In this document: positions 37,005-63,935 of the stretch, piece by piece
How positions within the stretch are numbered: position 1 is the first letter of the stretch
Layout of the letters: every line of letters starts with the position of its first letter
Source of the DNA: a virus
Virus record (IMG/VR): IMGVR_UViG_3300037521_000114
Location: 37,195-101,194 of that record
Direction: 5' to 3' (one strand)
DNA length: 64,000 nt
Made by a program: the position numbers and the translations under genes
The notes under the pieces: model-generated
Databases searched by the model: none
Seen by the model: only the letters and a program-made list of their open reading frames with translations
What the model was told of the DNA's origin: nothing

Positions 37005-37353
37005 TGGTTTTTGCGTTTTTAATGTAAATTTTCCATTTATGAATTTCCTTATTCCTCTGAATACGAGGATTCTCTTGACGAGCCTTGAACTCCTTGGATA
37101 CCTTCTGTGAATAGGAACTGATACGAGCATCAATATCCTCCACAGGAAACAGTCGTTCGGTAAACGATTCATATCCGTATTTATTTATAGTCATAAACCT
37201 TACACGTACCTCTTTCCCATCAGAGTACACACCTGCTGTCTTCCAAGTACTCAAGAATTTAGCGTAGAATCTCACAAGCCTATCCAAGTAGATAAGTTTA
37301 CAAACGAGGTCTTGATGTACACCTCCATTGATAAGTTTGAAAACTTTGAGCAT
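36991..37353 (-). CDS. Hypothetical basic protein after the terminator (120 aa)
   Basis: 120 residues, beginning MLKVFKLINGGVHQDLVCKL. The first half is beta/helix mixed with a basic region, and the second half is charged helix (SSYSQKVSKEFKARQENPRI). It is the first gene after the minus-strand terminator at 37.4 kb, so its transcript probably starts in the short interval 37,354-37,482. The function is unknown. Confidence 0.58.
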   Translation of the reverse strand: MLKVFKLINGGVHQDLVCKLIYLDRLVRFYAKFLSTWKTAGVYSDGKEVRVRFMTINKYGYESFTERLFPVEDIDARISSYSQKVSKEFKARQENPRIQRNKEIHKWKIYIKNAKTNADI

Positions 37354-53498: not shown

Positions 53499-54284
53499 AT
53501 GGGATTTAATTCAAATGCGTCAGATAAACCAGTTTTCAAAGAGATTAAACTCTATACAGGTTTACATAACCTGAAGGTCGTAGCTATCAATCCAACCAAA
53601 TCTGAGTTGGAGAAGATGGGTTATAAACCTCAAAATGATCCGGTTTACCTCACTGAAGAGGAAAAAGTGACGAAGCTCAGATTGGATTTTCACCTGCTTG
53701 GTACTGCTCCTAACGGAGACAATATCATGACCAAGGTGGCTTTCTTTCTTGAGAATCAGCACAGAGTCAATAAAGACGGTACTAAGAGTGAGTTCATAAA
53801 TGACTTTGGTCGGACTGCTTGGAGTATTGAAGGAGATATTGAGAACCCTCCTACAGGTCTGACATGGTTCAAGCATGAGACTGCTCGACGGTCTTATGTA
53901 GGTGAAGCTGATGTTCATCTGTTCCTCGTGAACTGGTTGAATATTGGACCAGAAGATGAAGCAAAGCTGGAAAAATACCTCTCTTTATTTGAGGAGGATT
54001 ACAGTGAACTTCTTGGACTTCTCGGAGGAAACAGTGACAACGAGATTCGTGTCCTGTTGACCGTGAGGGACAGCAAATACCAAAGTGTCTATAACAGGTA
54101 CTTTGATCGTGCTTCCAACAAGAGGACTAACTATTGGGACTCCCATATCAAGAGTCAAACTGCCAATGGTTATGCCTTGAAGGAAGATTACAGCAACTCC
54201 CTGCATTTTCAGGAGTGGGTTGAAGCACCAACCTCACCTGAGGCAGGAGCAGGAGCACCGAAGAAGGAAGACGACCCGTTTTAG
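53499..54284 (+). CDS. ssb: Single-stranded DNA-binding protein (261 aa)
   Basis: 261 residues. The C-terminus is GAGAPKKEDDPF, the acidic Asp-Asp-Pro-Phe tip that SSB uses to bind partner proteins. The body is strand-rich (KLRLDFHLLGTAPNGDNIMT). Helix and loop segments follow, longer than cellular SSBs, as in many phage SSBs. It lies between the P-loop ATPase and the primase, which fits. The oligonucleotide fold was not aligned. Confidence 0.72.
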   Translation: MGFNSNASDKPVFKEIKLYTGLHNLKVVAINPTKSELEKMGYKPQNDPVYLTEEEKVTKLRLDFHLLGTAPNGDNIMTKVAFFLENQHRVNKDGTKSEFINDFGRTAWSIEGDIENPPTGLTWFKHETARRSYVGEADVHLFLVNWLNIGPEDEAKLEKYLSLFEEDYSELLGLLGGNSDNEIRVLLTVRDSKYQSVYNRYFDRASNKRTNYWDSHIKSQTANGYALKEDYSNSLHFQEWVEAPTSPEAGAGAPKKEDDPF

Positions 54285-54295
54285 TATAATTTGAT

Positions 54296-55330
54296 ATGGC
54301 ATTTTCTACACCTGACAGTAAACTTACCAAGGAAAATATTCTCAAGAAACTTGATAGCTATCAGCTATTTAAGGCTTACTGCAAGAATTTTGTAGCTCTT
54401 GATAAGATGTTCAAAAGTGAGTTTCGTAAGGATAGTAAACCATCGTGCCATATCATCGTATGGGAAGGAGACCTTCTATATAAAGATTTTGGAGATAAAG
54501 GATACCGTATATTTGATTACATCGGACGTAAGCATGACACTGATTTTTTAGGAGCATTGAAAATTGTGAACAAAGACTTTAATTTGGGTCTTGGTTCTAC
54601 CTCAATGAGTAGTCCCTCTCTGGTAACTCCGGAGAGGGCTACTTTTGATATAGATCAATTTGAACGTAAACCTACAATTATTGATGTCAAGAAACGTAGA
54701 TGGACAAGTGCAGACAGAGCATATTGGGCACAGTATGAAATACCGCCAAAGCTCCTATTGTATCATAAAATCTACTCTATTGAAGCCTACATGATTGACA
54801 GTAAATTTCAGGATAATGTATCCTATCGTGTCAATCCCTACCAACTTGTCTATGTAATGGATTACTATTGGCACGATGGTATATTCCGAAGGAAGTTATA
54901 CTTTCCTCAGAATACAGGTAGAAATAGATTCATATCCAATGTCGATAATACTATAGTACAGGGATGGACTCTCCTTCCAAAGAACGGAAGTGACATTCTC
55001 TTCGTAACCAAGAGTTATAAGGATATTTTGACCTTTAACTTACATGGTTATTGGGCGATAGCTCCCAATAGTGAACAATCGTTTATACCAGAACAAGTAA
55101 TGGATAAACTGAAGCAAAGATTCAGTAACATATTTGTGTGGTTCGATAACGATGAGAGTGGTATAGATGGTGGCAAATCCTTTGCAAAAAGATTTAAGCT
55201 GATTTCTACTCATAATCCTATTGGTGAACCTAAAGACCCTTCTGATTACGTGAAAGAATATGGCTCGAAAGAGTTTGATACACTTGTAACTCAATTCTTA
55301 GATGAACGACATAATAGTTATCGTCCGTGA
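54296..55330 (+). CDS. Toprim DNA primase (344 aa)
   Basis: 344 residues. The N-terminal part has SEFRKDSKPSCHIIVWEGDL and DLLYKDFGDKGYRIFDYIGR, similar to the CHC2-type domain of phage primases, but the usual zinc Cys set is absent. The C-terminal Toprim domain has ILFVTKSYKDILTFNLHGYW, then the Asp-x-Asp centre FVWFDNDESGIDGGKSF. It makes primers for the replisome encoded by its neighbours. It overlaps the resolvase by 29 bases. Confidence 0.8.
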   Translation: MAFSTPDSKLTKENILKKLDSYQLFKAYCKNFVALDKMFKSEFRKDSKPSCHIIVWEGDLLYKDFGDKGYRIFDYIGRKHDTDFLGALKIVNKDFNLGLGSTSMSSPSLVTPERATFDIDQFERKPTIIDVKKRRWTSADRAYWAQYEIPPKLLLYHKIYSIEAYMIDSKFQDNVSYRVNPYQLVYVMDYYWHDGIFRRKLYFPQNTGRNRFISNVDNTIVQGWTLLPKNGSDILFVTKSYKDILTFNLHGYWAIAPNSEQSFIPEQVMDKLKQRFSNIFVWFDNDESGIDGGKSFAKRFKLISTHNPIGEPKDPSDYVKEYGSKEFDTLVTQFLDERHNSYRP

Positions 55331-55796
55331 CTTTGAGTATAGGTATTGTTTAGCAAAGAAGACAAGAAAGACAGGGAATCCTAAGTGGTGGACTATCAAT
55401 GGTCAAGGACTATATAGTGCTACCCTACATTTCCGAGCCAGAGATAAGCTAACAAAGTATTTCCACAAGTATCTATCAAAATATATCAAGCGACAGATTT
55501 CCAGAGAACAAATTATCGAGCTTAACAATCACATTTTTCCCGGCTCATCCTTAAAACTATCCATTTCCTTAGACATTTACGACATACGTAGAGGCAAGAT
55601 GCCTGACGTGAGTAATCTATGGTTATGGACCAAATGGTTTGAGGACGCTTTGCAGGAGTCACGAATAATTCCGGACGATAATCCGGACTATGTACAGGAA
55701 AGCGGACGCACTCGCTATCATTTCGTTGATAGTCAAGAGGAGCGTAGACTCGTTTTCAAATTGAGACTTATAGATATTAACAAAAAAACCTTATGA
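55302..55796 (+). CDS. rusA: RusA-like Holliday junction resolvase (164 aa)
   Basis: 164 residues. The centre has KMPDVSNLWLWTKWFEDALQ followed by SRIIPDDNPDYVQESG, matching the Asp...Asn...Lys...Asp-Ala pattern and second Asp pair of RusA endonucleases. The N-terminus is a strand region. It resolves recombination junctions before packaging. It overlaps the primase gene by 29 bases and the ubiquitin-like gene by four bases, so it shares their transcript. Confidence 0.72.
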   Translation: MNDIIVIVRDFEYRYCLAKKTRKTGNPKWWTINGQGLYSATLHFRARDKLTKYFHKYLSKYIKRQISREQIIELNNHIFPGSSLKLSISLDIYDIRRGKMPDVSNLWLWTKWFEDALQESRIIPDDNPDYVQESGRTRYHFVDSQEERRLVFKLRLIDINKKTL

Positions 55797-56578
55797 TCAT
55801 GAGGAAAGCAATATTGAAATTGACCACCCAAAAAGACCTGATCAATCATCAAACCGATGCAAGAACATTCGGTGAGCTGAAAAAAGAAATGAAGCAGGTC
55901 AAATGGAGTGGAATGAGGGTAGTGGAACGTTCCACTAAAGCTACTCTTCAGATGGACGATGCTACTCTCCCACAGGGAGATTTCGTCCTGTTTCTTGTAC
56001 CTGAGAAGGTCAAGAGTGGAAAGAAAACCAGTGGTGGTACTGAGGAACTCAGCAAGAATATTGAAGAGTGTTCCTACAATGAGTGTAGGAGTCACATGAG
56101 CTGGTTGAACCGGAACAAGGATGCAAATCTGGATATGTCCGGTGGTACTGCTTCCCTTCAGATGCAGTTGAGCAAGTATTACAAGAAGAATCCTGCTGGT
56201 ACATCTGCTACTAAGAAAGTAGCTCCAAAAGCAGCTCCTAAAGCTGAGGCTAAGAAGCCTGTAGCAAAGAAGCCTGAACCTGCTCCTGAAGCTGTTCCTG
56301 AAATGAGCAAGAAGGAGAAGAAAGCTGCTAAAAAGGCTGCGAAAGCTGCTAAAAATCAGCAAGAAGAAGCTCCTGTACCAACCGATCCTATCGAGATCAT
56401 TGAAGCATCTCGTGAGAAGATCAACAAGGCTGTTGATCAGATCGTGCTGGAATTGATTGAGAATGGTGGAACTGTACCTGCTGTACTTCAGTACACTGAG
56501 GATGATCTCAACAAAGAGATGAATAAAATCCACAATGCACTGAGAACCAGTAGGACTAATGCAGTTTACATCCAGTAG
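55793..56578 (+). CDS. Ubiquitin-like protein precursor with Gly-Gly and C-terminal extension (261 aa)
   Basis: 261 residues. Residues about 4-75 fit a beta-grasp ubiquitin-like domain: strand RKAILKLTT, helix TFGELKKEMKQV, then strands ATLQMDDATLPQGDFVLFLV. Right after it, residues 75-85 read SGKKTSGGTEE, placing Gly81-Gly82 at the position of the ubiquitin tail. The rest is a Cys-bearing helical part (about 90-125) and a Lys/Ala-rich tail (about 150-200) with an acidic end. A second SGGT occurs at 116-119. The JAB gene downstream could cleave after Gly82. No similar fold was checked by search. Confidence 0.6.
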   Translation: MIMRKAILKLTTQKDLINHQTDARTFGELKKEMKQVKWSGMRVVERSTKATLQMDDATLPQGDFVLFLVPEKVKSGKKTSGGTEELSKNIEECSYNECRSHMSWLNRNKDANLDMSGGTASLQMQLSKYYKKNPAGTSATKKVAPKAAPKAEAKKPVAKKPEPAPEAVPEMSKKEKKAAKKAAKAAKNQQEEAPVPTDPIEIIEASREKINKAVDQIVLELIENGGTVPAVLQYTEDDLNKEMNKIHNALRTSRTNAVYIQ

Positions 56579-56600
56579 AAGTTGTTTGTGGTTTTTACAT

Positions 56601-56641
56601 GAAGGGGTGTGAGGGAGTGATCCTTTGCACCTCTTCCTTTT
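56601..56641 (+). terminator. Attenuator-like hairpin between Ubl and E2 genes
   Basis: GAAGGGGTG (56601-56609) pairs with CACCTCTTC (56628-56636) through nine pairs (one G-T) and is followed by CTTTTAAAT. It lies in the 75-base gap between the ubiquitin-like gene and the E2-like gene. If it terminates part of the transcripts, modifier would be made in excess of enzymes. Confidence 0.65.
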
Positions 56642-56653
56642 AAATAGATAGCT

Positions 56654-58687
56654 ATGAACATAGATCAAAACGAAAGACCTGAAGAAGGACCTGATGAAGA
56701 GGAAATTACTGATCATCAAGCTGTTGCTGATGTACTTAGTAATGGAGAAACTTATGAGAATCTTACTTTAGATGGTTTAAGAGAAGTTGTAGAGGATGTT
56801 TTAGGAGAAGCAGATGAGGAAGTTGTACAAGAAATGGCTCAAGTTGAAAGGATTTTAGATGCTTCTGATACAGCAAGAGTATCACGGATTGATACGTCAA
56901 TGATTCCACCGGGAATGAGTGTAGAAGATTATGTAGAACATTATCGAGCTACAGGAACTCTTATTACTGAATCCACTGCTATTCCATCATCTTATCAAGG
57001 TAGTTCTACTGACGCAACTAATGTGTCATCACCTACTCAGACAACTGATGCAATAGCACTTGATGAGGAACTGGCTCAAACTATCGGTAGATTGGTTGAT
57101 GAGGGTACAGTTGTAATTGATCCAGAGGAAGGTGCTGCTGTCATATTAGGTGGAGAGGAACAAAAACCTGAACCACCAAAAGATGAGACTCCCAAGCAGA
57201 GGAGAGCAAGACAGCGTAAGGAAAATCCTGATCATTACAAGCAGGTTGCAACCCTTCATCTTGCTGATAAGCATATTCGTCAGAAAATGCAACTCAGGCA
57301 AAAGACCAGAGTAATGATTAGTGATGGTACTGTGAAGCCTAATGAACTGTTTATCACTACCAATGGGATTATATTCTCAACAAGTGATGAGATTACTTTC
57401 AACAATCCTAATATGACACAGCACACTATCATATTTGACAAGAACTTTAATGAGATTTCTTCTGTACGAAGTAAATCACATCGCTTTAAGCGAGTGTACC
57501 TGAAGCAGATAGGTCTCGATAATGTTCGTGCAAATCCTAATATTCATAAAGGAGTTGTCGTTGAAAGAGATGTGTTTATGGAATCCAAAGGTCGGAAATT
57601 GAAAATTATCCGAAGAAAAGATATGCCTTTCCATAGTATTATGCAATGCAGGAAAATTATCGTAAAAGGTTTTGAAAGAGCAGAGAGAAGTATCAACTGG
57701 TTAGTATCAAGTTTAAGGAATGTTTTCCCGGAAGAAGACTTTGATGTATTCTATCCGGTAAGCAACCATGATACTGAAGTTATGTTCACTATTATGATGC
57801 GTTTCAGAGATATTGAAATAACAAATTCGATTGAACTGACACATCAGATTGGTGATATGATTGTCAAGATGTATGGTACTTGTTATCCTACAAAAGAAGG
57901 TGTTAGGGTAGCAATGTCATCAGGTGTATATGGAACCAGAATGACATTCGATATAACAGATGCTATTTCAAAATATCAACATTCTCACCTTCCTTCAGCA
58001 CTGAACAACTTTAATAGTTTCTGTACAGGAGAACAATATTATGGATCAGACGGAATGTTAGATAACATGACATTTGAATCACTTCTGTATCGTCTTGGTG
58101 AGCTTGTCAGGTGGGAATCCCTTGAGGGTGGACCACACATGAGGATGGAGAATATTTCATTACTTGGAAATAGGTTTAGTCTAAAAAGCGATTTTAGTCG
58201 TAAAGACGGATACACAAAAAGGCTTATTCATGTTATCAAAGAGAAGCCTGAAGGATTCGATGTATTTGCAAGCTGCTTCTCTATCTATAATGATAAGGGT
58301 GTAGTACGTTTTAGAGCTGATAAACCAAGATTTTACTCGACATTTATTAAAACTATTGGTAAGCAGAATATCAAGAATATTCATGCTTCCTCAGGTATGG
58401 ATTTATATTCTTATGATGAATCTACTAATGTTTTCAAGATGATTAAATCACGAAGGGTAAATAGTCCGAAAGAAATGCGTAAAAAGGCAATCGCTAATTT
58501 ACAATCCTTTCAGCCTATCTATATGAATGGAAAGTATAATCGTATAATACTTGATAGTACTGATTCTGAAGACCTTATAAATCAATTAAATTTGTGCCCT
58601 CATCCTAATACGATGGATGATATTGCGAACCATATACTGTTTAAATTAACTGAAAAATTAAATGAGCATGGGAAAACCAGCGAATAA
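56654..58687 (+). CDS. E2-like protein with His-Ser-His and active-site Cys (677 aa)
   Basis: 677 residues. Residues 1-190 are acidic and low complexity. Residues about 330-510 contain a likely UBC/RWD-type core: helix GFERAERSINWLVSSLRNVF, strands EVMFTIMMRFRDIEITNS, then YQHSHLPSALNNFNSFCTGE, in which H443-S-H445 and C457-x-G match the His-x-His...Cys-x-Gly signature of prokaryotic E2-like proteins. RWESLEGGPHMRMENI follows. The remaining 170 residues are strand-rich. The Cys would carry the modifier thioester. It overlaps the JAB gene by 26 bases. The E2 call is by motif and operon context and needs structure prediction. Confidence 0.6.
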   Translation: MNIDQNERPEEGPDEEEITDHQAVADVLSNGETYENLTLDGLREVVEDVLGEADEEVVQEMAQVERILDASDTARVSRIDTSMIPPGMSVEDYVEHYRATGTLITESTAIPSSYQGSSTDATNVSSPTQTTDAIALDEELAQTIGRLVDEGTVVIDPEEGAAVILGGEEQKPEPPKDETPKQRRARQRKENPDHYKQVATLHLADKHIRQKMQLRQKTRVMISDGTVKPNELFITTNGIIFSTSDEITFNNPNMTQHTIIFDKNFNEISSVRSKSHRFKRVYLKQIGLDNVRANPNIHKGVVVERDVFMESKGRKLKIIRRKDMPFHSIMQCRKIIVKGFERAERSINWLVSSLRNVFPEEDFDVFYPVSNHDTEVMFTIMMRFRDIEITNSIELTHQIGDMIVKMYGTCYPTKEGVRVAMSSGVYGTRMTFDITDAISKYQHSHLPSALNNFNSFCTGEQYYGSDGMLDNMTFESLLYRLGELVRWESLEGGPHMRMENISLLGNRFSLKSDFSRKDGYTKRLIHVIKEKPEGFDVFASCFSIYNDKGVVRFRADKPRFYSTFIKTIGKQNIKNIHASSGMDLYSYDESTNVFKMIKSRRVNSPKEMRKKAIANLQSFQPIYMNGKYNRIILDSTDSEDLINQLNLCPHPNTMDDIANHILFKLTEKLNEHGKTSE

Positions 58688-59870
58688 TAAAAAAGAGAAG
58701 GTTGAATATCCCCTGTATGAGATGGAAGAAAAAGGTAAATTGATTTTGCCACCTGAAATCTTATCACAGATTACATTCCTTCATTCCCATGTTGGGAGAA
58801 CGGAGTGGTCAGGGATGCTATTGTATGATGTGATCAATGGTAATCCTTCAAAGCCTGAAACTTTCGAGCTTGAGGTAAAACACATTTTCCTGATGGACAT
58901 TGGTTCAGCAGCTTATACCGAATATGAAGCAGATGGTGACATTGTGGACATCTATGACAACATTCCTGAAGCAATGGAATGGAAGACAGGTCATGTTCAC
59001 AGTCATCATGATATGACCACATATTTCTCTACTACAGATATGGGTGAACTTCACGATAACGTGGATAAGCACAACTATTATCTGTCTCTGATCGTGGCTT
59101 TCAACGGCAGTTATACTGCTAAAGTTGCGTTCCTGAGTGACATGGAGACTACATCCAAGATGACTTTCAAGGATGATTCTGGTAACATCAAGAGTTTCAA
59201 GCAGAAGAAAATGGAGAGGCACATGGTTGTTATCAACATGAGGATTCTGTTTGCTGAACTTGGTGGATTCTTTTCTGCTCGTTTAACTGAACTTGTTGCA
59301 AAAGAAGAAGCAGCAAAGGAGGCAGCAGAAAAGGCAGCAGAAAAGGAAAGAACGAAAGCTGGTTATAAATATGGAGGATATGGTGGTCAACACAATAGTC
59401 ATTTCCATAATCAGAATATGGATGAACTTCCACGTCATTCTATCGGGAGTAAAATCATTCCTGACAAAATGACATCTTGGGAGATCGAAAACCTGACAAA
59501 AAGCATATTGATGCTTGAGGCTCATCCAGCAGGAAACGTCTATTCAATTCTGCATCAGGTGGCTCGTGAGGATCAGAATATGGACCTTTATCCAGACTAT
59601 TTAATGTGTAATGCCGAAGCTATAATTGATGAGTATTTTGATGATCCTTTAGCTGACGATGAATATGCTATCGTCATAAAAGAATGTATCATGTGTATCA
59701 AGAAATACGAAGGCGTTGTTGCTCTTGCACCGATTACCACAGTAATTTGTGAATCTCTCGCTGTAATTGCTCAAGGATACGAGGAAGGCGGTGTGCGTGA
59801 GGTTGACCAAGAGGATGAAGGAAGCATAGCAGCACAACTGGAAAAAGCAGAAAAGGAGCTTAAATTATGA
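58662..59870 (+). CDS. JAMM/JAB metalloprotease, deubiquitinase-like (402 aa)
   Basis: 402 residues. The JAMM site is complete: Glu48 in RTEWSGMLLY, His113 and His115 in GHVHSHHDM, Ser123 and Asp126 in YFSTTDMGEL. The N-terminal 200 residues are the JAB core, the middle is a Lys/Ala/Glu-rich linker with a Gly/His segment (YGGYGGQHNSHFHNQNMDEL), and the last 150 are a helical domain. Phage tail JAB proteins exist, but this one lies in the replication region beside E1- and E2-like genes, so removal or processing of a ubiquitin-like modifier is favoured. Two Met starts (residues 1 and 3) are possible. Confidence 0.85.
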   Translation: MSMGKPANNKKEKVEYPLYEMEEKGKLILPPEILSQITFLHSHVGRTEWSGMLLYDVINGNPSKPETFELEVKHIFLMDIGSAAYTEYEADGDIVDIYDNIPEAMEWKTGHVHSHHDMTTYFSTTDMGELHDNVDKHNYYLSLIVAFNGSYTAKVAFLSDMETTSKMTFKDDSGNIKSFKQKKMERHMVVINMRILFAELGGFFSARLTELVAKEEAAKEAAEKAAEKERTKAGYKYGGYGGQHNSHFHNQNMDELPRHSIGSKIIPDKMTSWEIENLTKSILMLEAHPAGNVYSILHQVAREDQNMDLYPDYLMCNAEAIIDEYFDDPLADDEYAIVIKECIMCIKKYEGVVALAPITTVICESLAVIAQGYEEGGVREVDQEDEGSIAAQLEKAEKELKL

Positions 59871-60556
59871 TAGATGTAAAACAATCAAGATTCCGTGATG
59901 CTTCGTGGTTTGAGAAACTATCGAAGTACACGGTTCCTATCATTATTGGAGGCGTGGGAGGAATAGGTAGCTGGTTGACTCTTTACCTTTCGAGGATGAT
60001 GGGACCAGACAGCTACCTTATTCTCTACGACTTTGATAAAGTAGAGGAAATAAACATGGCTGGACAACTGTTCAGGATTCAGGATATAGGTTTGCTGAAA
60101 GTTGCTGCTGTAAAAGATGTAGTAGCAGCGTTCAGTGGTTACGATAAGATCGTAGCACAACCTGATCGGTATGATGAGGATTCCCTGAGGAGTCCTGTCA
60201 TGTTCTCCTGTTTCGATAACATGAAAGCGAGAAAGGTAATGTTCGAGAATTGGTTACAGGAAGCTGAGAAGTATCCTGAATCCATATTCATCGACGGTAG
60301 GTTAAACGCAGAGCAATTCCAAGTATATTATGTTACTCTTGAATGGGCAAAAAAGTATTCCGACACTTACCTTTTTGATGATGCAGAGGTCGAGGACGCA
60401 GCGTGTAGTTATAAGCAAACCAGTCATTTTGCTGCCTCCATCGCTGCGAAAATGGTCCAAGGATTCACGGGGTTTCTTGATGATACTTACGAACTCCCGT
60501 TTCGGTACGAAGAGATCGGACCATTGTTCTTAACAGAAATTGATAATGGAAGCTAA
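59867..60556 (+). CDS. ThiF/E1-like ubiquitin-activating enzyme (229 aa)
   Basis: 229 residues. The nucleotide site is IIIGGVGGIGSWLTLYLSRM (28-45), acidic residues in LILYDFDKVEEINMAGQLFR (Asp55, Asp57, Asn63, Arg70) and Lys78. A second strand has SCFDNMKARKVM (Asp117). The catalytic cysteine is probably Cys180 in EVEDAACSYKQTSHFAASIA, which matches the Cys-rich crossover loop of E1-like enzymes. It is short, so it lacks separate catalytic and ubiquitin-fold domains. It would adenylate the Gly end of the Ubl. It overlaps the JAB gene by four bases. Confidence 0.85.
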   Translation: MIDVKQSRFRDASWFEKLSKYTVPIIIGGVGGIGSWLTLYLSRMMGPDSYLILYDFDKVEEINMAGQLFRIQDIGLLKVAAVKDVVAAFSGYDKIVAQPDRYDEDSLRSPVMFSCFDNMKARKVMFENWLQEAEKYPESIFIDGRLNAEQFQVYYVTLEWAKKYSDTYLFDDAEVEDAACSYKQTSHFAASIAAKMVQGFTGFLDDTYELPFRYEEIGPLFLTEIDNGS

Positions 60557-61328
60557 GGATATTTGCAACATTCGTGACAGTGTCTATAATGGGTCACATG
60601 CGATAGATTCCGAGATTGGATTTAATATTCATGACGGATATTACCCTTTGCCTCGTATTAAGACACAGTACGATTCATCAAAGAACCCTTATTTTAGAAC
60701 TGCCTGTCAAAGTCAATATGGAGGATCACGAATTACTGATAACGTATATTACCAAATAAGTGGTCCGGGACAATCCATGAAATATAAGAAGACAAGACGC
60801 TATAGTGATGCAAAATTTGTCAACTTCTATTTCGGATTTTTTACTGCATTGGGAATTACTCAACTTGATTATCTTCCAACAACTATGCTTGGTTCAACAG
60901 AACACATGATGTTTGGAGAACCAGACGTTTTCTGTATAGGAGTAGTTAAAGTAGGTGCACCTATTGATGTTAAATTGACGTATCAAAATCATGCTCGTCG
61001 AAGTAGTCGTTACGTGTATCATTCAACCAGTTATGAAATAAAGATAAACTACAAGGATATTATTATTCTTGTTTCTGAAGAAAAATTACGAAGAGCAGCT
61101 TTTGCAAAGACATATTACACAGCAACCGTAAGAAAAGCAATTTTAGGAAATTTATTGAAACTTCAACGTAAACATGGAATGGCATTTGAAGATGTCCCTG
61201 ACGCATATCTGAAGAATTTCGTAAAAAGTTCTAAGTCAATTAGAACGAACTCCTTAGTTGAAACCTTGACTATCGGTAGAGATATTAAGGAGAATGTATT
61301 TTCTAACCTTAATAAATTAGCAGTATGA
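60546..61328 (+). CDS. Hypothetical protein coupled to the E1-like gene (260 aa)
   Basis: About 260 residues from MEAKDICNIRDSVYN, preferring the ATG at 60546 over a TTG at 60540. It overlaps the E1-like gene by 11 bases, so it is translated with it. The sequence is basic and strand-rich in the middle (VFCIGVVKVGAPIDVKLTYQ) with a helical C-terminus. I see no E3, RING or ligase motif. It may be a partner, substrate receptor or an unrelated replication protein. The function is unknown. Confidence 0.55.
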   Translation: MEAKDICNIRDSVYNGSHAIDSEIGFNIHDGYYPLPRIKTQYDSSKNPYFRTACQSQYGGSRITDNVYYQISGPGQSMKYKKTRRYSDAKFVNFYFGFFTALGITQLDYLPTTMLGSTEHMMFGEPDVFCIGVVKVGAPIDVKLTYQNHARRSSRYVYHSTSYEIKINYKDIIILVSEEKLRRAAFAKTYYTATVRKAILGNLLKLQRKHGMAFEDVPDAYLKNFVKSSKSIRTNSLVETLTIGRDIKENVFSNLNKLAV

Positions 61329-62389
61329 CAGAACAAGAGTATCGCGCACTTGACCGTGTGAGCTATTCGTCACTCTCTAAGTTAGCAAGTTCACCACAGG
61401 CTTACAAAGCAGGTGTTGAGGGTCAGAAGGAAGAAACTTCCTACATGACTCTCGGCACTGTGGTGGACATGCTGCTAACTGACAAAAAGAGATTTGACGA
61501 TGAAGTTTACGTGATGACAGCAGACAAACCTTCTGCTGAGACAATGCTAATGTATTGTAATACTTTAGCTGAGACAGGCGACTCAATAAAAGCCTATCAA
61601 GCATCAGGATATAAGATTAGTCCTAATGCAGTATCAACTAAATTTGATAAAGAAGGCAGAGCATATTTTGACGCATTACTTGACGCAAAAGGAAAATTGA
61701 TTATTGACGCAGATGGAATGTTTACAGCAAATCAAATTGTAGCAGAGCTTACCTCAAACTTATTTACTAAAGGATATTTTCTACCAACCAGATCACCAGA
61801 TATTGAACTCAAATTCCAAGTCCCAATCCTATGGGAAGTTCAGACTAAATCTCTTATTGATCCTGAAGAGATAGTAACTACCGAACTCAAGAGCCTTCTT
61901 GATGTGGTGTTTATTGATCATAGAAAAGGATTAGTGCTTCCTGTTGATTTAAAGACAGGTGGAGAAGGTTTCATGAAATCCTATTGGAGATACCACAGGT
62001 ATCTACAGGGAGCTATGTACACTGATGCTGTAAGAGGTAGGAGGTGGCAGAGACATGATGAAGCTGAACGTGAATACGAAGTAGAACCCATGAGGTTTGT
62101 CTTCGCTGACACAAATCTGATACATCCTCCTGTAGTATGGTGTATGAGCCAATTAGATGTTCTCGGAGGAAAAGAAGGAATACCATATCTTGCACTACGA
62201 CCAGGAATTTCAGCAGGTGGAAAAGATGAAATGGTATGGGTTCCTACCGACAGAATAAAACGCAAAGGATATTTACAACTGATTGCAGAATTAGATTGGC
62301 ACACTAAAATGGACCAGTGGCGTTACTCTTACGACACCTATCAAAAGAATGGTGAAATGGAGATTGACGCATTTGAAATAAGAATTTAA
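61325..62389 (+). CDS. PD-(D/E)XK exonuclease, RecE/Cas4-like (354 aa)
   Basis: 354 residues. The N-terminus VSYSSLSKLASSPQAYKAGV is a hallmark of this exonuclease family. The nuclease core is near 200: TELKSLLDVVFIDHRKGLVL then PVDLKTGGEGFMKSYWRYHR, giving Asp...Asp-x-Lys with a following Tyr/Arg helix. It resects double-stranded ends for recombination with the SSB and Sak4-like ATPase upstream. It is coupled to the previous gene by a four-base overlap. Confidence 0.8.
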   Translation: MTEQEYRALDRVSYSSLSKLASSPQAYKAGVEGQKEETSYMTLGTVVDMLLTDKKRFDDEVYVMTADKPSAETMLMYCNTLAETGDSIKAYQASGYKISPNAVSTKFDKEGRAYFDALLDAKGKLIIDADGMFTANQIVAELTSNLFTKGYFLPTRSPDIELKFQVPILWEVQTKSLIDPEEIVTTELKSLLDVVFIDHRKGLVLPVDLKTGGEGFMKSYWRYHRYLQGAMYTDAVRGRRWQRHDEAEREYEVEPMRFVFADTNLIHPPVVWCMSQLDVLGGKEGIPYLALRPGISAGGKDEMVWVPTDRIKRKGYLQLIAELDWHTKMDQWRYSYDTYQKNGEMEIDAFEIRI

Positions 62390-62401: not shown

Positions 62402-63175
62402 ATGTTTAGAGACAAGATAAAAGTCGGTACTCACGCTGTCATAAATGTTATGACAGTTGATGCGAGGAGACTGTATCTTGATACTTCCAACATTGCGTTC
62501 ATGAACACTGAAATGGACGAAACTAATAGTCACATTACAGCTATTTCATTTGAAAACAAGGTAATCCTGAGACAAGGAGACAAGATTCAAATGAAACTCG
62601 GTACAGTTAATACTGTATATGAGGTAGCTTATATGGTTATTGAAAAAAAGGGCAAATCTGTAGTCGTCTATAGTGCACTACCGACAAAGACTGAATTGTT
62701 TTTACTTCCTGCTATTGGAAAGACCCAAAAGCAACTGAAGTTTAATACTTACTTTGTCAATGCACAACTTGATTATTCTCATGAGTTCTTATGTCTAACG
62801 TACAGATTTACAGGGACAGAGACTTATAAGGAGTTCGAGAATTATATGGTTACGGACCCTCTATGTACCTTCCATCTTGAACATGGTAAATACCAAGTAA
62901 CATATATGTTTAAGATCCCTTTGAAGTTTAACGCAGATGTGTTATCTTTCGTAGAAGGAAGATACTCCAAGTTCTCTAAGGCGTTGATTGATCGCATACG
63001 AAGATTTCATGGTACAGAAAGTAGTAAGCCTATGCTTGAAATTATCCGCAAGGATAAAGACCTGAAGGCTAATATGGAAAGATATTTAGGAATGGAATTA
63101 CCTGCCACGAGTGAACTTGCATCAAAACCAGATATTAAAACAGAAATATATCAGCCTTATGACAGATCAAAGTAA
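62402..63175 (+). CDS. Hypothetical strand-rich protein (257 aa)
   Basis: 257 residues, starting MFRDKIKVGTHAVINVMTVD. Two strand-rich halves (residues about 30-95 and 105-170) are followed by a helical basic end (EGRYSKFSKALIDRIRRFHG). It lies between the exonuclease and the DUF932-like gene. No catalytic motif is visible. It may be a nucleic-acid partner of the recombination set. Confidence 0.55.
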   Translation: MFRDKIKVGTHAVINVMTVDARRLYLDTSNIAFMNTEMDETNSHITAISFENKVILRQGDKIQMKLGTVNTVYEVAYMVIEKKGKSVVVYSALPTKTELFLLPAIGKTQKQLKFNTYFVNAQLDYSHEFLCLTYRFTGTETYKEFENYMVTDPLCTFHLEHGKYQVTYMFKIPLKFNADVLSFVEGRYSKFSKALIDRIRRFHGTESSKPMLEIIRKDKDLKANMERYLGMELPATSELASKPDIKTEIYQPYDRSK

Positions 63176-63935
63176 TTATTATCAATTGATGGAGCGTCGT
63201 GCATTAGGTGCTCCAATTCCGGCTCGTACAGACACTTACAGTCCTGTCAGCCATGCTGAAATTATTGAGGCAATGAAATCTCGACTCACACACAATAACC
63301 TTAGTATTGAGAAAAATAGAGTTTACTCTAATTCTCAAGGTACTCGTGTTGTTGGATTTTTTGATGTCATAGATGGTAGTGAACTCGGTAAGGAACATGG
63401 TATGCAGATGATGCTCGGCTATCGCAACTCTTATGACAAGTCAATGTCAGTTGCATTTGCCGCAGGAGCAACAGTATGGATTTGTGAGAACGGTTGTATC
63501 TCAGGTGATTTACTTGCATTTCGCAGGAAACATACTGGAACCGTTGCGTCTGAACTTGCTGATAAGATACAAACTGGTATCGACAGAATGAGAGATGATT
63601 TTGGAAGACTTCTGATTGAAGTGGATATTATGAAGAACTATTCTCTGACTCCACGACAGAAAGCTGAAATCTTAGGAGTAATGTATTTCGAGAGGAACAT
63701 TGTTTCTCCTACTCAACTCTCTATTGTAAAACATGAGTTGAAACACAGTCATAATTTTAAGGAGGATAATGCTTGGAGCCTTTACAACAATGTAACGGAG
63801 TCCTTAAAGCGTTCTCATCCTATAAGTATTATTCCTGATCACATCAAAGTTCATGGTTTCATGAAGGAGATGTGCGGAATGAGTACTGTTGGATCATTAC
63901 CTGAGACAGATGTTGAATCCACAGTTGAAGGATAA
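63159..63935 (+). CDS. DUF932-like phage protein (258 aa)
   Basis: About 258 residues from MTDQSNYYQLMERRALGAPI, taking the ATG at 63159. A longer frame overlaps the previous gene more. The pattern HAEIIEAMKSRLTHNNLSIE, then GMQMMLGYRNSYDKSMSVAF and AAGATVWICENGCISGDLLA, is what I recognise as the DUF932 family, common in phages and plasmids near replication genes. Its biochemical role is unknown. It overlaps the previous stop by 17 bases. Confidence 0.68.
   Translation: MTDQSNYYQLMERRALGAPIPARTDTYSPVSHAEIIEAMKSRLTHNNLSIEKNRVYSNSQGTRVVGFFDVIDGSELGKEHGMQMMLGYRNSYDKSMSVAFAAGATVWICENGCISGDLLAFRRKHTGTVASELADKIQTGIDRMRDDFGRLLIEVDIMKNYSLTPRQKAEILGVMYFERNIVSPTQLSIVKHELKHSHNFKEDNAWSLYNNVTESLKRSHPISIIPDHIKVHGFMKEMCGMSTVGSLPETDVESTVEG

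Follow-up and report, generated by a model that had tools for sequence, protein, structure and literature searches.

Four consecutive open reading frames (ORFs) in a viral genome, IMG/VR record IMGVR_UViG_3300037521_000114, were analyzed as a candidate cassette for conjugation of a ubiquitin-like protein (Ubl). The window, i.e., the whole stretch of DNA that was analyzed, comprises 64,000 nucleotides and corresponds to positions 37195 to 101194 of the 101,194-base virus record. All four genes that the original prediction, made from the letters of the window, had placed between positions 55793 and 60556 were found there on the plus strand (Table 1), and inspection of the codons located each catalytic residue that it had named (H443, H445, and C457 in the E2-like protein; E48, H113, H115, S123, and D126 in the JAB metalloprotease; C180 in the E1). 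The E2-like and JAB genes overlap by 26 bases and the JAB and E1 genes overlap as ATGA, and because of these overlaps the three genes probably form one translationally coupled unit. The virus record contains one ThiF-family gene. TerL, the portal protein, and the capsid protein of the phage have matches in phage families for head and packaging proteins, with crAss-like phages as the named relatives of TerL and the capsid; the matches of all three proteins to crAss-like phages agree with the predicted identity of the virus.

Table 1. Genes and domains of the cassette and its surroundings (positions are those of the window)
Feature	Position	Strand	Size or residues	Basis or remark
Ubl precursor ORF	55793-56578	+	261 amino acids (aa)	
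Predicted ubiquitin-fold (beta-grasp) domain of Ubl precursor	55793-56020	+	residues 1-76	AlphaFold, Foldseek, Gly conservation
C-terminal tail of Ubl precursor, predicted to be removed after Gly76	56021-56578	+		AlphaFold secondary structure, variable tail length among homologues
E2-like protein	56654-58687	+	677 aa	N-terminal part mostly lineage-specific, largely disordered
E2-like core	57629-58141	+	residues 326-496	AlphaFold pLDDT mostly >90; C457 and H445 conserved
JAB/JAMM metalloprotease	58662-59870	+	402 aa	E48, H113, H115, S123, D126
E1-like ThiF-fold adenylyltransferase	59867-60556	+	229 aa	PF00899 match, C180
Gene Y, overlapping E1	60540-61328	+	262 aa	Cassette membership doubtful
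SSB-like protein, upstream context	53499-54284	+		Relative in 63/90 loci
DNA primase, upstream context	54296-55330	+		phrog_12622 (9.8e-37); in 87/90 loci
RusA-like resolvase, immediately 5' of Ubl	55302-55796	+		phrog_1682 (3.1e-7)
Exonuclease VIII-like gene, downstream context	61325-62389	+		phrog_412 (2e-18)

The homologues used to evaluate these proteins came mostly from metagenomic phage contigs, and the conservation counts refer to distinct proteins (110 to 119 homologues), not to independent events. Across these homologues, residue conservation was far beyond chance.

The N terminus of the Ubl precursor had been described as beta-grasp-like, and structure prediction bore this out. AlphaFold, supplied with 95 homologues, placed a beta-grasp at residues 1 to 70 with a pLDDT (predicted local distance difference test) of >90, and the Foldseek matches in the PDB were ubiquitin-fold proteins, namely, DIX, ubiquitin, ISG15, NEDD8, and a Bacteroides ubiquitin (best E value, 7e-4; target TM of about 0.6 to 0.7, for small proteins). 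The relatives begin at the third residue (MRK...), and thus the true start is probably at position 55799. The sole invariant column of the alignment was Gly76 (KVKSG; codon at 56018-56020), which was kept in 117 of 118 homologues, mostly as K-x-K-S-G. Beyond the beta-grasp, AlphaFold predicted two helices (residues 95 to 132, with a helix-extended-helix look), a disordered linker rich in K, A, P, and E, and C-terminal helices. A SAP/HeH-like reading of this tail, which was a visual impression to which Pfam gave no support, was rejected. The length of the tail past the glycine varied from 1 to 252 aa, and 13 homologues terminate 1 to 5 residues past it (KSG-K, KSG-NE, KSG-VNV), in the manner of the precursors of ubiquitin and SUMO. 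In cr106_1 (L005 3740-4943), the tail has an ORF of its own; the modifier ORF ends two residues beyond the glycine, and immediately after it comes an HNH endonuclease gene. The short tails and the split tail of cr106_1 are the marks expected of a precursor that is cut after the glycine. Once the tail had been removed, the protein would be a beta-grasp modifier with an activatable C-terminal glycine.

Among the cassette proteins, the E1 alone was assigned a known function by Pfam, NCBIfam, PHROGs, and PADLOC. It matched Pfam ThiF (PF00899) at 46.7 bits, over the cutoff of 28.1 bits, and its best relative of solved structure in the PDB was UBA5 (5e-11). Its motifs comprise GxGGIG (residues 29 to 34), D55, D57, N63, Q67, K78, D117, and the catalytic-type C180. 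The last of these was present in 109/109 homologues; K78, D117, R122, and R145 were each present in 110/110, and GxG, D57, N63, and Q67 were invariant or nearly so. The predicted ThiF nucleotide site with Cys180 was confirmed. The arginine of the "RQ" motif is replaced by glycine in 104 of 110 homologues, which, by eye, differs from PRTRC ThiF. R145, which lies in DGRL, is invariant while the "RQ" arginine is glycine, and it is possible from this pattern that R145 is a shifted active-site arginine. The E1 proteins of crAss001 (L003 7563-8711) and cr106_1 (L005 7500-8708) carry an N-terminal extension of ∼150 to 170 residues that is absent from the E1 of the window.

All five residues of the JAMM site reported for the JAB protein were conserved across homologues (E48, 108/108 where present; H113, 109/111; H115, 111/112; S123 and D126, 118/118 each). 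The Pfam Prok-JAB match in the relatives was below threshold (E values, 2e-4 to 7e-4), and neither the JAB of the window nor the relatives scanned reached the Pfam cutoff. Several JAB genes are interrupted. In L158 (9064-9366), L146 (8230-8683), and L064 (5558-5817), a group I intron (Rfam RF00028) lies at or close to a split JAB gene, and in L158 and L146 the second piece of the gene begins at the JAMM motif, right after HSHN. In Fpv1 (L002 5710-8002), JAB is split at about residue 111, beside the catalytic HSH, by a gene for an HNH-type endonuclease that runs on the other strand, with no intron detected there by Rfam at gathering score. The JAB of FpV4 matches in one piece.

The E2-like protein is strongly conserved around a single loop. 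C457 was present in 118/118 homologues (one gap) and H445 in 119/119, followed by S444 (117/119) and N391 (117/118); E488, S489, G492, and P494 were each present in 118/118, and G459 was nearly absolute in 119 sequences. H443 was weaker (98/118). The original prediction had been made to depend on the conservation of C457 and Cys180 among relatives, and both cysteines proved invariant. The loop reads Y441-x-H443-S-H445...C457-x-G459, usually with 12 to 20 residues between the histidine and the cysteine, and is followed by a helix (residues 471 to 486) and by E488-S489-L-E-G492-G-P494. In the AlphaFold model, this loop is preceded by a helix (residues 326 to 355) and four strands (residues 363 to 368, 376 to 390, 396 to 413, and 416 to 429). 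The sequence of helix, four-strand meander, His/Cys loop, and helix is the E2 order as far as predicted topology goes. The canonical E2 pattern is HPN...C. Two divergent phages recovered through their primase, L197 and L198, carry FIHPHVSTIRRNAGLMC(Q/L)GT, i.e., HPH...GLMC, in their E2-like proteins, a motif that reads close to this pattern. The Ubl of both phages is 84 aa long and ends in SG-VK or SG-IK, and hhalign linked the Ubl and E2-like proteins of L197 and L198 to the two families with E values of 6e-7 and 1e-9 (1.1e-9 for the E2-like protein).

The cassette recurs across many phages. Searches of deposited phage records by tblastn recovered the E1 from 78 records and the JAB from 74; the records with cassette genes include crAss001, PhiCrAssBcn isolates, Kehishuvirus, Kolpuevirus, and 29 Flavobacterium psychrophilum phage records, and DAC15/17 was found in addition when the E2-like protein and E1 of crAss001 served as queries. 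In the records, the genes go under the names "thiamine biosynthesis protein," "metalloprotease domain," "hypothetical," and, once, "E1 enzyme family protein." Scans of IMG/VR yielded 214 E1 and 87 E2-like relatives, of which the best 80 of each were kept, and loci were reduced to distinct E1s before counting. The order UBL-E2-JAB-E1 was exact in 91 loci, or about 110 when split or duplicated genes are included. Cultured phages with the cassette include crAss001 (gp76-gp79), DAC15, and Flavobacterium phage Fpv1. The cassette is widespread and syntenic in Steigviridae-like phages, in Flavobacterium phages, and in metagenomic relatives of both. When 84,980 bacterial and archaeal species genomes were scanned, E1 relatives appeared on only three short contigs of metagenome-assembled genomes; two of these genomes also have the E2-like gene, and we take all three contigs to be phage sequences that were binned with bacterial ones. 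To the extent that this pattern scan is sensitive, the family appears to be viral. The set had been called unusual, a description that needs revision: with about 110 distinct phage loci, it is no rarity of a single phage.

From the gene order, residue patterns, and predicted folds, it is likely that the cassette is a phage-encoded Ubl conjugation system of a new family. In such a system, the JAB metalloprotease would trim the Ubl precursor after Gly76 and discard the tail, and the E1 would adenylate the exposed glycine and then form a thioester between the Ubl and Cys180. The next carrier of the Ubl would be Cys457 of the E2-like protein, where Asn391, Glu488, and the Ser-His loop would help. 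From there, probably with no separate E3 involved, the E2-like protein would attach the Ubl to proteins, which may be those of the phage replisome (SSB, primase, helicase, Sak4) or host proteins met there, and JAB would also take the Ubl off again.

Several results weigh against this interpretation, and most concern the identity of the E2, which is the weakest link of the cassette. Foldseek found no E2, UBC, or RWD protein in the PDB among the 50 best matches of the 677-aa model (best E value, 0.16), although the query was the full-length model, whose disordered N terminus may hurt the search. A BFVD fold search gave clear matches to the protein's own family only. There was no Pfam or NCBIfam E2 match, and Prok-E2_D (PF14460) was absent from the full list for 94 E2-like members; a search for Prok-E2_D across 200 genomes from a single phylum gave no match anywhere and is uninformative. 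Comparison with the profile of PRTRC protein B aligned the Cys motif but was not significant (E value, about 0.02), no better than that against the phage JAB, and therefore homology to PRTRC B was not claimed. Furthermore, the families listed for 95 Ubl members include no Pfam Ubl family and no Prok_Ub (PF14454), which the Ubl of the window did not match either; there is no E3-like gene; and the best named families of the E1 are ThiS adenylyltransferases (PRK08644, 2.7e-16), which is compatible with sulfur transfer. The predicted E2-type signature stood in its invariant H445 and C457 and in the predicted topology but found no counterpart in a fold or profile match to known E2s. It is quite likely that the 677-aa protein is an E2. 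The HSH motif had also suggested that its core might be a duplicate of the JAB fold, a candidate ruled out by the predicted topology.

One alternative concerns ancestry and overlaps with the conjugation system proposed above: the cassette might be a divergent PRTRC system carried by phages. The Ubl-E2-JAB-E1 order is identical, the JAB profile matches PRTRC protein A at 2e-6 over HSHxxMxAxFSxTD, the E1 profile matches PRTRC ThiF at 1e-19, and two of the three plasmid matches of the E1 are PRTRC ThiF genes. However, no PRTRC family model reached its cutoff (TIGR03736 PRTRC_ThiF gave 33.6 bits on the E1, below 144.75 bits), and ThiF models outscored PRTRC_ThiF on the phage E1s. Neither the Ubl profile nor the E2-like profile matches its PRTRC counterpart (C and B, respectively), no ParB, E, or F was seen, and the DUF2016 N-terminal domain of PRTRC A was not found in the phage JABs scanned. 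Such an origin seems unlikely.

Bacteria possess Ubl-like defense systems, and a second alternative, which retains the same chemistry and overlaps with the conjugation system in all but purpose, is counterdefense: the cassette, or the Ubl as a decoy, might disturb host Ubl immunity (CBASS Cap2/Cap3, Bil) or modify host defense proteins. The E1 weakly matches the E1-E2 and BilD models of PADLOC (14 bits for BilD), which counts for little because such matches are expected for any E1. The cassette is conserved widely over divergent phages, and in about 90 loci it keeps a fixed place amid core replication genes instead of lying in a variable accessory region, which makes counterdefense a rather poor candidate.

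It is improbable that the E2-like protein is instead a second processing or deconjugating Cys enzyme (a hydrolase or thioesterase) or a scaffold, with transfer directly from the E1 or no transfer at all. The failure of the fold search to return an E2 would fit this possibility, and the conserved N391, H445, C457, and E488 could make a Cys-His-Asn/Glu site. However, the histidine and cysteine share one loop after a four-strand meander and before a helix, an E2-like layout that differs from the Ubl proteases known to us, the gene lies between Ubl and JAB as does the PRTRC E2, and HPH...GLMC occurs in L197 and L198. The weakest alternative, a sulfur-carrier pathway in which the ThiF-like enzyme makes a Ubl thiocarboxylate as the sulfur donor (for a nucleotide, tRNA, or cysteine precursor), JAB frees or recycles the carrier as in CysO/Mec+, and the 677-aa protein is a sulfur acceptor enzyme, finds parallels in the ThiS-type relatives of the E1 and in sulfur assimilation operons that hold JAB, ThiF, and Ubl sets without an E2 (PMC1779556), but it is very improbable because the Ubl ends in -KSG rather than -GG with no ThiS/MoaD match among the families listed for Ubl members, the annotated neighbors are replication genes without a rhodanese, SirA, thiazole, molybdopterin, or cysteine synthase gene among them, and the invariant Cys in a helix-four-strand-loop-helix protein would be left unexplained.

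The genomic context was evaluated in 90 distinct long loci with all four genes. The neighbors were primase (87 loci), Sak4 (70), helicase (69), exonuclease (65), SSB-like protein (63), and UDG (58), and the usual order was helicase-Sak4-SSB-primase-(UDG or RusA)-UBL-E2-JAB-E1-exonuclease. The predicted location inside a replication module was thus upheld, with the four Ubl-pathway parts conserved together there and their predicted catalytic residues kept. Gene Y was found by profile in 14 loci only, which does not favor a fifth cassette member; a gene of similar size occupies its position in crAss001 (gp75) and others. A DUF932 gene (Pfam, 3.6e-10) lies shortly downstream of the cassette at 63111-63935 of the window. 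Two crAss-like genomes, CrAssphage ZA (Intestiviridae) and Cellulophaga phi14:2 (Steigviridae), lacked the cassette by profile. In phi14:2 (L185 22025-27669), the slot holds gamma-glutamyl cyclotransferase (GGACT), ATP-grasp, COOH-NH2 ligase, class II amidotransferase, and Amidoligase_2 genes. This amide-ligase cassette also follows the primase in L194, L269, and L270 (in L269, three of the five genes were seen before the contig ends), and no locus had both cassettes, although the numbers are small. It is possible that the amide-ligase cassette is a nonhomologous replacement of the Ubl cassette. A tentative and somewhat doubtful extension is that a dedicated viral Ubl system regulates the replisome by tagging replication proteins and that the genomic site following the primase serves as a "protein-ligation slot," occupied in some relatives by the analogous amide-ligase/cyclotransferase cassette.

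In the openly available literature, which excludes subscription papers and preprints, no paper linked "crAss-like phages" with "ubiquitin-like," and a wider open-literature search returned only Neurospora crassa and similar. There is no mention of ubiquitin in the main texts of Yutin 2021, the crAss001 paper, and the crassvirus structural atlas. No database record or open paper searched names the cassette as a Ubl tagging set, and within this literature the suggestion that it may be undescribed holds. Known bacterial Ubl systems are mostly seen as host defense or plasmid functions. If a complete, conserved Ubl set belongs to the replication core of viruses, this would be a new role for Ubls, and cultured phages (crAss001, DAC15, Fpv1), whose hosts are abundant bacteria of gut and aquatic habitats, would allow the purpose of prokaryotic Ubls to be tested. 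About 110 natural variants per component, including modifiers with long and very short tails, are available for study of the origins of the E1-E2-Ubl cascade.

Type II CBASS combines E1/E2 chemistry with a JAB protease in Cap2/Cap3. The phage cassette shares E1/E2-type and JAB components with it; however, Cap2 is an E2-E1 fusion that acts on a CD-NTase, with no separate Ubl gene, whereas the phage E1 is separate and short, and no CD-NTase was seen beside the cassette, the neighbors being replication genes. Bil (BilABCD) likewise has Ubl, E2, JAB, and E1 as separate genes, with BilC as the enzyme that matures the Ubl (PMC11354881). BilA contains a pair of Ubl domains in place of the single beta-grasp of the phage Ubl, BilD consists of two adenylation halves plus a Cys domain in place of a single 229-aa E1, and Bil protects bacteria, whereas the cassette resides in phage genomes. 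A Ubl-fold protein also adjoins a JAB protease in the lambda tail assembly proteins I and K (PMC1779556), but in a structural (tail) module without an E1 or E2. ThiF/ThiS and MoeB/MoaD pair a short ThiF-type E1 with a beta-grasp partner as the cassette does, but the phage Ubl has no -GG end, the annotated neighbors include no sulfur genes, and E2-like and JAB genes are added. In the type 6d operons of Iyer et al. 2006, which we read as PRTRC, the E2 is described as missing the usual histidine and the JAB as having an additional domain at its N terminus (PMC1779556). The gene order of PRTRC plasmid operons is ParB-E-C(Ubl)-F-B(E2)-A(JAB)-ThiF; their core order is that of the cassette, with Prok-E2_D in the position of the phage E2-like protein, and both share a mobile replicon, a Ubl ending in Gly, C-x-G at the E2 cysteine, and the HSH...FSxTD JAB motif. 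In contrast, PRTRC adds ParB, protein E, and the helical protein F, its JAB has the N-terminal DUF2016, the His of its E2 lies downstream instead of upstream, and its Ubls mostly end at Gly, whereas the phage set lies in a replication module and matches none of the tested PRTRC family models. Assignment to PRTRC was rejected because of these unmatched models and the missing partners. PRTRC is the nearest known operon, and the cassette is best filed under none of PRTRC, Bil, and CBASS, although its sequences suggest that it works like such a system.

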